From positions 1 to 64,000 of the forward strand of contig NZ_FQUU01000007.1 of NCBI RefSeq assembly GCF_900129295.1: a DNA stretch of 64,000 nt, written 5' to 3'. Position 1 is the first letter of the stretch. Each line of letters begins with the position of its first letter. Both the position numbers and the translations under genes were made by a program. Below, piece by piece: positions 61,237 to 64,000 of this stretch. The notes beneath the pieces were generated by a model, which ran no database searches, was not told where the DNA came from, and worked only from the letters and a program-made list of their open reading frames with translations. This DNA comes from Flavisolibacter ginsengisoli DSM 18119. GTDB taxonomy: Bacteria > Bacteroidota > Bacteroidia > Chitinophagales > Chitinophagaceae.

Positions 61237-62745
61237 TCAGGCCATTATTTTTTGTTCCGGAGGAGATGCTGCAACATTTGAACTGATGTTATCAGGGAAT
61301 AAGATAGTTATCGTCGATCCCTGGTCAATGCGGGAATTGGCCATTATCACACCTTTATGATTCTCAACGATCTTTTTACAGATAGCAAGCCCAATACCCG
61401 TGCCTGAGAATTTAGGACCCTGGTGAGCCTTTTTAAATACCTTAAATATGTTTTCTCTATGTTCCGGATCAAACCCAATTCCATTATCCTGGAAACTTAT
61501 TTTCCAACAAGTACCATGTAGTCTATGAATACATTTGATTTTTTCGGCACTAATGCTGATGACTGGTTCTATATCCTGTCTGGAAAAACTAAGTGAATTG
61601 TGTAATAAATTGGTAAACAATTGTTCTATTTGATCAGGAATAGCAATGAGTTTTGGCAGCCTTGAATATTCTATCAGTGCGCCTTGTTTCTGAATATCCT
61701 CCTCCAGGTTTTTTAGCACTTTGGTTAAAATCGTATTGAGGTCTACCTCACTGAATTTTTCTTTTATATTCAAAGTAGAATATGCATAAACATCATTGAG
61801 CAAATTCTGCATGCGGACAATAGATTCATTGATCTTTTTAAAATATATCCTTGAAGTAGGTGAGAATTCCTCACCTTCTATTTCTTCTATCCTTTCATAA
61901 AATATACGGATCTTTCTTAGCGGTTCTTTAAGGTCATGGTTTACGATAAAATTGAAGGAGGAGAGCTCATCATTTCTTTTTTCCAATTCTTCATTTTGTT
62001 GAAAAAGTACCATGTTCTTATATTCCACTTCATATGTCCTTTCTTTCACTTTTTCTTCCAGGATCCCGGCAATGCTTTCCGACTTGTGTCTATGGTCACG
62101 TTCTTTTAGCATAGTAATGAATGAGGCAATCAGAATGATAAAGGAAAATAAGGATAAGAAGAAATTGATCTGCGATGCATTGGCTTCCTGTTTCTCCCAA
62201 TTTTTAAATCGCTCTTTTAAAAGCCGGTCCTCGAGCTGCTGCATGTGAAGCACCTGGGCTGTTACTATATCCGAAAGGTATTTACCTCGGATAAGCAATT
62301 CATTGAGTTTCTGCTCCGGTATGGAAGGGAAGCTATTAAAGGCAAGATTTAGTTCATTAATTCTTGTGTGAGTAAGAAGGCGAATGCTCTTAAAATATTC
62401 CTCTTCTCCACCTTGACCAGATACAAGGGAATGCAGTTCTTGAATATATACAGGTATGGCAATGATTGATTTAAGATACTGCCTGGCGAAAGTGGTGTCC
62501 GAAGTAAGAAAATATCCTCTTGCATTTGATTCAGCATCCCTTATCCCGTTAAGCACCTGTTGTAATTTTATTTTAACCTCATAAGTATGAGTTACCCAAT
62601 TAGATGAATTTTTCTGCACCTGGAATCTATTGGAAGAAAGAAGGCTCAATGCCAGCAATAAACTAGCCGTCACAAAAAAGCTTAACAGGGGCCAATTATA
62701 TTTACGCTTTTTTTCTACCAGCATTGATGGTTCATTACGCAGCAC
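61237..62745 (-). CDS. CHASE3-type hybrid-free sensor histidine kinase
   Basis: A 502-residue kinase with two membrane helices (about 19-38 and 194-213) that bracket an extracytoplasmic CHASE3-like domain (RDAESNARGYFLTSDTTFARQYL and LNLAFNSFPSIPEQKLNELLI). A coiled linker is followed by the HisKA phospho-acceptor H270 in FIVNHDLKEPLRKI and a HATPase_c domain (NLLHNSLSFS N-box, DNGIGFDPE, GTGIGLAICKKIVENHKG). No response regulator gene is adjacent. It resembles cyanobacterial phytochrome-like and Bacteroidota sensory kinases that act through a diffusible regulator. Confidence 0.93.
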   Translation of the reverse strand: MLRNEPSMLVEKKRKYNWPLLSFFVTASLLLALSLLSSNRFQVQKNSSNWVTHTYEVKIKLQQVLNGIRDAESNARGYFLTSDTTFARQYLKSIIAIPVYIQELHSLVSGQGGEEEYFKSIRLLTHTRINELNLAFNSFPSIPEQKLNELLIRGKYLSDIVTAQVLHMQQLEDRLLKERFKNWEKQEANASQINFFLSLFSFIILIASFITMLKERDHRHKSESIAGILEEKVKERTYEVEYKNMVLFQQNEELEKRNDELSSFNFIVNHDLKEPLRKIRIFYERIEEIEGEEFSPTSRIYFKKINESIVRMQNLLNDVYAYSTLNIKEKFSEVDLNTILTKVLKNLEEDIQKQGALIEYSRLPKLIAIPDQIEQLFTNLLHNSLSFSRQDIEPVISISAEKIKCIHRLHGTCWKISFQDNGIGFDPEHRENIFKVFKKAHQGPKFSGTGIGLAICKKIVENHKGVIMANSRIDQGSTITILFPDNISSNVAASPPEQKIMA

Positions 62746-62974
62746 AGGGAAAAGTTGCCTGCAAGATCAATATTGGTTGCGACCCCTCTGGTAACATTTA
62801 ATTGCCTTTACTGCAGTTAATAAATAAATTCAAGCTTGATTCACATGTAAGGCGACCCTTCAAAAGGTAAGCAGATAGTATCAGATCAAATTTAGACATG
62901 CTGTATTACCAAACATATGATGGTAGTCAGTAAGTTGCTTTTATAAACATGCCCTTAAGCATATTTAAAGGGGC

Positions 62975-62990
62975 TGTGATCAAAATCATA
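62975..62990. promoter_or_regulatory. CRP/FNR-like palindrome
   Basis: TGTGA at 62975-62979 and TCATA at 62986-62990 are separated by six bases; the right half differs from the CRP consensus TCACA at one base. It lies about 127 bases upstream of the tryptophanase start and just upstream of the candidate promoter. Function is inferred only. Confidence 0.35.
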
Positions 62991-63019
62991 TGCCGGTTCT
63001 GAGAGAATAATTAATTTTG
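62989..63019 (+). promoter_or_regulatory. Candidate Bacteroidota promoter for the tryptophanase gene
   Basis: TATG at 62989-62992 (consensus -33 TTTG) and TAATTTTG at 63012-63019 (consensus -7 TAnnTTTG) are separated by 19 bases, the expected spacing. The predicted start of transcription is at about 63024-63026, which falls at or next to the leader ATG. Confidence 0.45.
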
Positions 63020-63024
63020 TTTAT

Positions 63025-63063
63025 ATGAACATATGGAAAAATATCATTAATAAACCCACCTAG
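63025..63063 (+). CDS. Possible Trp-containing leader peptide (TnaC-like)
   Basis: A 12-codon frame (MNIWKNIINKPT, stop TAG at 63061) ends 53 bases before the tryptophanase ATG. Like TnaC of Escherichia coli it has a single Trp and a Pro near the end, but it is shorter and the W-P spacing is 7 residues rather than 12. It may be a chance frame. If real, it would sense tryptophan by ribosome stalling. Confidence 0.3.
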   Translation: MNIWKNIINKPT

Positions 63064-63116
63064 GCCGCCTTCCTCTTGGTCAGTATTCCACTTTATTTTT
63101 TCATTTAATTTTCTAC

Positions 63117-64000
63117 ATGAGAACCATTATTGAACCGTTCCGGATCAAATCCGTTGAACCTATTTATTTCACGTCCCGGGAAGAAAGGGAACGCATTTTA
63201 GAAAAAGCTTTTTATAATCCTTTCCTGATAAGATCAAAAGATGTGCTGATTGACCTGCTAACAGACAGCGGCACCAGTGCGATGAGCAGCAACCAGTGGG
63301 CAGGCATAATGCAGGGAGATGAGTCCTATGCAGGAAGTCCAAGCTTCTACCGGTTTGAAAAAACAATAAGGGAACTAACGGGCATGCCAATAGTTATTCC
63401 AACTCACCAGGGAAGGGCAGCAGAAAAGATCCTTTTCAGCGTAATGGGCGGAGCTGAAAAATATATTGTTAGCAACACCTTGTTTGATACTACAAGAGCA
63501 AATATTGAATGCTCCGGGGCTACCGGCATAGACCTGCTTTGTGAAGAGGGGAAATATCCTTCGATACCTGCTCCATTCAAGGGTAATATGGACGTTGAAG
63601 CATTAGAGTCATTTATTGATGAAAAAGGTGCCAGTGTCATTTCATTATGTATGCTCACCATTACCAATAATTCTGGGGGAGGACAACCTGTAAGTATGCA
63701 AAATATCAGGGAAGTAAAAGCTATTTGCGAAAAAAATGGGATACCCCTATTTATTGATGCTTGTCGGTTTGCGGAGAATGCTTACTTTATTAAGAGCAGG
63801 GAAAAAGGATATGAGAATAGAAGCATTGAAAGTATTGCCACAGAAATGTTCTCTTTCGCAGATGGTTGCACAATGAGTGCTAAAAAGGATGCCTTTGCCA
63901 ATATTGGCGGCTTCATTGCCATGTATGATGAATCATTAGCGCTTAAATGCAGGAACCTTCTGATCATAACTGAAGGTTTTCCCACTTATGGTGGCCTGGC
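63117..64000 (+). CDS. tnaA: Tryptophanase/tyrosine phenol-lyase family, N-terminal part
   Basis: The frame starts at ATG 63117 and runs off the right edge after about 294 residues. It carries EPFRIKSVEPI, LIDLLTDSGTSAMS, GDESYAGSPSFY, IPTHQGRAAE, GQPVS, FIDACRFAENAYFI, EMFSFADGCTMSAKKD (PLP-lysine region) and EGFPTYGGL. Several strings resemble tyrosine phenol-lyase, but the LFDTT motif has Asp, the residue found in tryptophanase where tyrosine phenol-lyase has Thr, so tryptophanase (Trp to indole, pyruvate and ammonia) is the better call. The C-terminus, with the remaining discriminating residues, is outside the window. Confidence 0.8.
   Translation, partial: MRTIIEPFRIKSVEPIYFTSREERERILEKAFYNPFLIRSKDVLIDLLTDSGTSAMSSNQWAGIMQGDESYAGSPSFYRFEKTIRELTGMPIVIPTHQGRAAEKILFSVMGGAEKYIVSNTLFDTTRANIECSGATGIDLLCEEGKYPSIPAPFKGNMDVEALESFIDEKGASVISLCMLTITNNSGGGQPVSMQNIREVKAICEKNGIPLFIDACRFAENAYFIKSREKGYENRSIESIATEMFSFADGCTMSAKKDAFANIGGFIAMYDESLALKCRNLLIITEGFPTYGGL

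Follow-up and report, generated by a model that had tools for sequence, protein, structure and literature searches.

Does the very short reading frame that precedes a tryptophanase-type gene in Flavisolibacter ginsengisoli DSM 18119 encode a leader peptide that controls this gene, and if so, what would it sense? The frame, MNIWKNIINKPT* (63025-63063, + strand), is found in the window, the whole stretch of 64,000 nucleotides that was analysed, and is read as a leader ORF on the basis of its sequence and its conservation in relatives. The initial annotation had reported 12 codons with one Trp and a Pro near the stop, 53 bases 5' of the gene, and a direct reading confirms this. The codons are ATG AAC ATA TGG AAA AAT ATC ATT AAT AAA CCC ACC TAG, giving a peptide of 12 residues with a single Trp. 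Codon 4 (63034-63036, + strand) is the Trp codon and the presumed sensor position, where an aromatic residue is conserved in the cores of related leaders. The peptide ends in Pro-Thr-stop (63055-63063, + strand), with Pro as codon 11 (63055-63057) and TAG as the stop, and 53 bases lie between this stop and the ATG of the tryptophanase-type gene at 63117. Across both strands of the window, the pattern W-x-N-I-I-x-x-P-[ST]-stop has one match, which is this frame. A comparison of 62700-63400 with Rfam 15 gave no match at the gathering score and two matches far below it. The gene divergent from the leader (61237-62745, - strand) resembles, by eye, a membrane histidine kinase.

The downstream gene occupies 63117-64000 (+ strand) of the window, and its end lies near base 64508 of the contig. 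Its product has 463 residues, and the next listed ORF is on the opposite strand. The assignment as tryptophanase-type rests on alignments and on the NCBIfam subfamily PRK13238 'tryptophanase', whose cut-off the enzyme exceeds; it reaches the cut-off of none of the substrate-specific NCBIfam models. In the alignments, Asp, Ile and His stand where tyrosine phenol-lyase has Thr, Arg and Phe, at positions that we take to be the substrate-deciding ones. Tyrosine phenol-lyase was rejected as the downstream enzyme on these residues and the PRK13238 score. Among the five genomes of the genus (G000; G004, G175, G227, G269), only that of the window has a tryptophanase of this kind. Since it is the sole carrier, gain by transfer or repeated loss within the genus is possible. 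In several genomes of the family, a second lyase lies close behind the leader-tryptophanase pair (for example, L149:1540-2910, with tandem matches). In G163 this second lyase scores above the NCBIfam tyrosine phenol-lyase cut-off, which suggests that arrangements of the G163 type may be leader-tnaA-tpl operons.

Is the frame conserved? Upstream regions of tryptophanase-type genes were drawn from 294 genomes of the same family, a species-level genome collection and 395 genomes of the phylum. They gave 176 loci, of which 164 have distinct last 200 bases; the 12 loci identical there were dropped. The pattern x-N-I-I-x-x-P-x-stop is found in 74 of these 164 distinct regions. A wider pattern, [WFY]-x-x-[IVS]-[ILVMS]-x-x-P-[STG]-stop within 320 bases, widened once degenerate members were seen, is found in 81 of the 164. 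It is matched in 7 of 8200 mononucleotide-shuffled regions and in none of the 164 reverse strands, and a chance frame is ruled out by this comparison. The commonest form is M-x-x-W-K-N-I-I-x-[RK]-P-[ST]-stop, and MNIWKNIIKSPT* is a second leader peptide besides that of the window. ATG or GTG stands exactly three codons ahead of the aromatic residue in 64 of the 81 leaders, while three have no start codon (ATG, GTG or TTG) within eight codons. In the 75 distinct cores, position 4 is W in 69, F in five and Y in one; Pro, which the pattern requires, is present in all 75, and the stop is TGA in 31, TAG in 24 and TAA in 20. Conservation of the Trp and Pro in relatives had been proposed as a check, with non-conservation as grounds for refutation. 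Both residues are kept, together with four further positions, and the refutation fails. The short W-P spacing, seen initially as unlike TnaC, is fixed at 7 in the 81 pattern matches (the pattern requires it). Only the leader of L017 (genome G243), MNPWKIIQKNIIRKPS*, has a spacing of 12, as in TnaC, and it looks like the product of an inserted repeat.

The leader is not found before every gene of this type. Within the family, it precedes 46 of 53 tryptophanase-type genes of at least 70% identity, a figure that includes two exact duplicates and the L017 insertion variant, and is missing from the other seven. It is present at none of 15 loci of a second tryptophanase-like type of 55-63% identity in the same family (L133-L148 except L145); several of these genes are divergent from a lyase paralogue. 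None of 27 outside-family loci carries it, these being the best-scoring of 138 matching phylum genomes, with a further 12 tryptophanase-matching genomes from the order or class of the family lying outside the set; a search of the phylum loci L209-L235 did not find the leader pattern. A quick tree built from 129 proteins requires 11 changes of the leader trait, versus about 43 with shuffled labels, and the large branch with the Ignavibacteriota has no leader. The leader-bearing loci are mostly labelled as Chitinophagaceae or unplaced Bacteroidota, and a few drafts are labelled as Flavobacteriaceae or Sphingobacteria.

What do the genes behind the leader have in common? A sequence-only model was built from 46 leaders, all 5' of tryptophanase-type genes, and run over the 294 family genomes. 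The best 44 matches (E up to 1.2e-4) comprise 39 at tryptophanase genes, four at kynurenine-pathway genes and one partial match, in G173, where there is no leader. The four kynurenine-pathway matches (G291, G229, G177 and G105) come from genomes without a tryptophanase match. Pfam assigns representatives of the non-tryptophanase genes to tryptophan dioxygenase (PF03301) and kynureninase. The model matches in 32 of 79 genomes of the G229 genus (g6) at E up to 0.001, and all 32 matches precede a gene of tryptophan catabolism (17 dioxygenase, 11 kynureninase, three tryptophanase and one dioxygenase-like). Seven of 14 genomes in the genus of G291 also match, four before tryptophanase and three before dioxygenase-like genes. 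Gene names in these two genera rest on blastp against seven references, and the dioxygenase of L299 and the tryptophanase of L321 look cut or broken. Over the order (198 genomes), there are 10 matches at E up to 5e-4, and those outside the family are in G775 (dioxygenase-like), in G903 and G804 (tryptophanase) and in G789, where the match is partial and there is no leader. Over the phylum (395 genomes), there are 28 matches at E up to 0.01, and the three at E <1e-6 are all in the family. Weak partial matches in the family and phylum runs (roughly E 1e-4 to 1e-2) are mostly outside these context counts. The non-tryptophanase contexts total 17 classic tryptophan dioxygenase, 11 kynureninase and five dioxygenase-like genes. 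Because the leader also precedes dioxygenase and kynureninase genes, which are unrelated to tryptophanase, it is not tied to one gene family. As judged from the gene assignments, it is a mark of tryptophan catabolism within one order, and tryptophan would be the substrate common to the leader operons if the dioxygenase-like genes act on tryptophan. A dioxygenase gene is present in 207 of the 294 family genomes. The leader was not found in the stored stretch of the best-scoring 30 dioxygenase loci, and seven of ten divergent dioxygenase loci are without it; the other three are the leader operons of G291, G105 and G177. By this search, most dioxygenase genes of the family show no such leader.

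We consider it probable that the frame is a compact ribosome-arrest leader, which would induce tryptophan catabolism when tryptophan is plentiful through relief from Rho. The identity of the ligand is the point at which this explanation has its strongest rival. In the G229 genus, the aromatic position is W in 20 of 20 leaders before dioxygenase or tryptophanase genes, and it is Y or F in 11 of 11 kynureninase leaders (8 Y, 3 F) and in the dioxygenase-like leader of G105. The Y form of the peptide is MENIYKNIINRPS*, and the kynureninase leader loci are all from species of one genus. The shift from W to Y or F could reflect a switch of ligand, with kynurenine in place of tryptophan. The peptide might then arrest ribosomes in response to kynurenine, indole or another aromatic amino acid, or to a ligand that depends on position 4 and differs between operons. 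The contrast between the Y/F leaders and the 20 of the same genus that keep W speaks for such an effector. However, F or Y is also found in six of the 81 leaders before tryptophanase-type genes, the kynureninase gene is followed by a dioxygenase-like one in all four operons with sufficient sequence (G177, G685, G736 and G693), and the dioxygenase route does not make indole. We regard a different effector as unlikely.

The spacer between leader and gene bears on the mechanism proposed for the tryptophan-responsive leader. In the window, it is C-rich and G-poor (63064-63116, + strand; 14 C and 5 G of 53) and is a candidate Rho loading region. In the 81 loci, the first 45 nucleotides after the leader stop have a mean C content of.249 and G content of.116, with C exceeding G in 71. 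As a control, the remaining ORFs at these loci, whose starts were guessed, have a C/G of.171/.153 before and.163/.166 after them; YC dimers number 7.2 in the 45-nucleotide spacer, compared with 3.8 before and 3.2 after the other ORFs. The 45 nucleotides before tryptophanase genes without a leader have.148 C and.129 G. C also exceeds G in 33 of 33 spacers before non-tryptophanase genes. A C-rich, G-poor spacer fits Rho loading, with C-richness taken as a proxy for a rut site, and the genome of the window encodes Rho. There is no terminator-like site from leader to gene in the window, and a terminator-like hairpin occurs in 13 of the 81 spacers. Intrinsic termination was rejected as the general mechanism on this count. 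Because of these 13 hairpins, Rho need not be universal, and some lineages may differ.

The length of the spacer is pertinent to a second alternative, that the frame senses nothing and feeds reinitiation at the enzyme gene, or that its product is a free-acting micropeptide. Leader ORFs near genes may raise initiation, according to PMC4833913. The model outlined there has gaps of about 10-16 bases, whereas the gap here is 49-228 bases with a median of 79 (81 leaders). This alternative would also leave the recurrence of the same peptide before tryptophan-catabolism genes unexplained, and we find it very unlikely. Classical attenuation, in which a shortage of charged tRNA-Trp would delay the ribosome at the lone Trp codon, is even harder to accept. 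The leader ORF does contain a Trp codon, but only one, which is at times replaced by F or Y, and the conserved residues lie past it. The leader and spacer of the window fold no better than shuffles (z -0.23), and such a switch would turn catabolism on in starvation. We rejected it for the single replaceable codon, the lack of a fold and the wrong direction for a catabolic gene.

Is it the peptide or the nucleic acid that is conserved? In the 75 distinct cores, the third codon positions at N, I, I, P and S/T have an entropy of 0.92-1.59 bits, while at N, I, I and P the first two codon positions hardly vary (0-0.24 bits). Since synonymous codons vary freely and the first and second positions are near-fixed, the leader peptide, not the DNA, is under selection. 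That the block is a DNA or RNA element (a protein site or an RNA structure) to which translation is irrelevant is hardly credible and was rejected on codon-position entropy and the fold null, for although the bases are well conserved at the DNA level too, both serine codon boxes are used, the block ends exactly at any of the three stop codons, and there is no match on the reverse strand.

The region 5' of the leader contains a putative promoter. A Crp/Fnr-type operator, TGATCAAAATCA, with the pattern TGAYN4RTCA, lies at 62977-62988 (a palindrome, with no strand assigned); the type of regulator is suggested by the form of the site. A Bacteroidota -7 box, TAATTTTG, follows 23 nucleotides past the operator (63012-63019, + strand). 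TGAYN4RTCA is present within 120 nucleotides 5' of the leader in 45 of the 81 loci, compared with a mean of 0.67 and a maximum of 4 in shuffles. A TAnnTTTG box (at least 5/6) starts exactly 23 nucleotides past the operator in 39 of these 45 loci and at 22-24 bases in 42, versus a mean of 1.9 and a maximum of 6 in shuffles. In Flavobacterium psychrophilum, the TAnnTTTG consensus is placed at -12 to -5 in PMC9723704. With the box at -12 to -5, the palindrome centre falls at -41.5, where class II activators of the Crp/Fnr type bind. The box position puts the predicted transcription start of the window at 63024-63025 (+ strand); transcription would start one base 5' of the leader ATG, and the leader mRNA would be leaderless or almost so. 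In the largest class (18 of the 45 loci), 35 bases separate the palindrome from the start codon, and the predicted start is the A of the leader ATG. Boxes of at least 5/6 end 4 nucleotides ahead of the start codon in 20 of 63 leaders and 5 nucleotides ahead in two. Leaderless mRNAs account for 5.5% of the mapped ones in F. psychrophilum (PMC9723704), and 5' UTRs under 10 bases for about 3.7% in Bacteroides thetaiotaomicron (PMC7366714). The palindrome is present in none of the 33 non-tryptophanase leaders examined; thus it is the peptide, not this promoter, that is common to the contexts. The kynureninase leaders of L306-L315 apparently have, in place of the palindrome, a different conserved promoter stretch, which reads TTTGGCA...TATTTGCTTTG in the upstream regions inspected. 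At L020, L061, L071, L074 and L076, the -7 box lies, as seen by eye, inside an inverted-repeat loop or on the border of that loop, and T-runs follow the repeat. Thus, the likely terminator of the upstream gene and the promoter of the leader overlap there.

From these elements, we propose the following sequence of events. Transcription of an almost leaderless mRNA would start at the leader ATG, driven by the housekeeping -7 box and an activator of the Crp/Fnr type, and ribosomes would translate the 12-residue peptide on which selection acts. Free L-tryptophan may be held in the exit tunnel with the aid of Trp4 and the N-I-I segment, and the ligand-bound ribosome would arrest at Pro-Ser/Thr-stop. 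In the least certain steps, the stalled ribosome would cover the C-rich spacer and block Rho, so that transcription reaches the tryptophanase gene; when tryptophan is absent, the ribosome would depart and Rho would terminate transcription. The same peptide may serve dioxygenase and kynureninase operons in other species. This relief of termination explains the fixed peptide end at the stop, the internal aromatic residue, the unstructured C-rich spacer and the common tryptophan substrate. Several observations count against it: the Trp is not invariant (F or Y takes its place in six of 81 tryptophanase leaders and in 12 of 12 kynureninase and G105 leaders), uL22 Lys90, a ligand contact in E. coli, is Gln in the genome of the window, and the leader is missing from 7/53 close, 15/15 distant and 27/27 best-scoring outside-family loci, as well as from most dioxygenase genes.

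A more far-reaching version is a possibility to which we give limited credence. Here, a separately evolved family of 12-residue arrest peptides, often leaderless, would act as the sensor for a regulon of tryptophan degradation (tryptophanase, tryptophan dioxygenase and kynureninase) in an order of Bacteroidota. It would switch between W for tryptophan and Y or F for kynurenine, and its pocket would differ from that of TnaC, with no uL22 Lys90, no Asp16 and the Trp nearer the peptidyl transferase centre.

To our knowledge, nascent peptides that sense amino acids have been described for a small number of ligands, the tryptophan case being TnaC of enterobacteria and their kin. If the tryptophan-responsive arrest leader is real, it would be a second, dissimilar tryptophan sensor before unrelated enzymes and would indicate how little sequence such a sensor needs. 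It would also give a separate means of locating the tunnel sites at which free tryptophan can bind, and would bear on the control of indole and kynurenine output by Bacteroidota. The leaders that naturally carry W, F or Y already amount to a set of mutants. Among the matches listed from the open-access literature, with subscription papers and preprints mostly outside, no title or abstract start mentions a TnaC-like leader from Bacteroidota or any leader ahead of genes for dioxygenase or kynureninase.

How close is this leader to known systems? Classical attenuator leaders such as trpL have a leader ORF with codons for the amino acid concerned. Those of the trpL type carry Trp codons in tandem, together with a terminator and competing hairpins, whereas the leader of the window has one Trp codon and no significant fold; moreover, the conserved residues of the Bacteroidota leader follow the Trp, and its genes are catabolic. 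SpeFL and ErmCL (PMC10941005) and ErmBL (PMC4935803), also short peptides, respond to a small molecule within the tunnel. Their ligands and genes are different ones.

TnaC is the closest counterpart. Both are short leader ORFs directly 5' of a tryptophanase gene, in both W-x-N-I opens the conserved part, and both have a basic residue and Pro near the end. In the genome of the window, 23S A752, U2609 and G748 (which we take to be E. coli numbering) are kept, and position 753 differs. The E. coli tna operon is controlled by substrate-induced relief of termination, as set out in PMC10941005; its rut site and catabolite control (same source) have possible counterparts in the C-rich spacer and the Crp/Fnr-type site of the Bacteroidota leader loci. 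The differences are nonetheless many. TnaC of E. coli K-12, MNILHICVTSKWFNIDNKIVDHRP*, has 24 residues, not 12, its W and P are 12 apart, in contrast to 7 in the window and the 81 pattern matches, and 220 bases separate it from its gene, in contrast to 53 in the window. Residues W12, D16, I19 and P24 are described as essential in TnaC (PMC10941005). In the 75 Bacteroidota cores, the position of Asp16 (W+4) is I in 71, L in three and S in one, and that of Ile19 (P-5) is N in 68, K in six and T in one, with Ile at P-3 and P-4. Pro is the last sense codon of TnaC, whereas in the Bacteroidota leaders it is followed by Ser or Thr in 74 of the 75 cores and by Gly in one. The UGA stop of TnaC is read by RF2, while the Bacteroidota leaders use all three stops, with TAG in the window. 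Any change of Trp12 abolishes TnaC stalling (PMC8429421); among the Bacteroidota leaders, F and Y forms occur naturally and may or may not arrest ribosomes. In E. coli, uL22 Lys90 makes a salt bridge to the ligand (same source), whereas Gln is at the aligned position in the one genome compared, that of the window. The Bacteroidota leader is also unlike TnaC in preceding dioxygenase and kynureninase genes and in its predicted nearly leaderless mRNA.

Because of the spacing, Asp16, Ile19, the last Pro, UGA and uL22 Lys90, we do not file the leader as a TnaC. Of the initial description as a possible TnaC-like leader, membership in the TnaC family finds no support. The mode of action stands as probable, in view of the conserved Trp and Pro, the selection on the peptide and the other tryptophan-degrading genes: the leader probably works like TnaC. 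The shared W-x-N-I...[RK]-P could be due to a distant kinship with a loss of five residues, or to convergence. Our comparison suggests that these Bacteroidota may detect tryptophan within the ribosome by a compact device of their own, akin to TnaC of E. coli.
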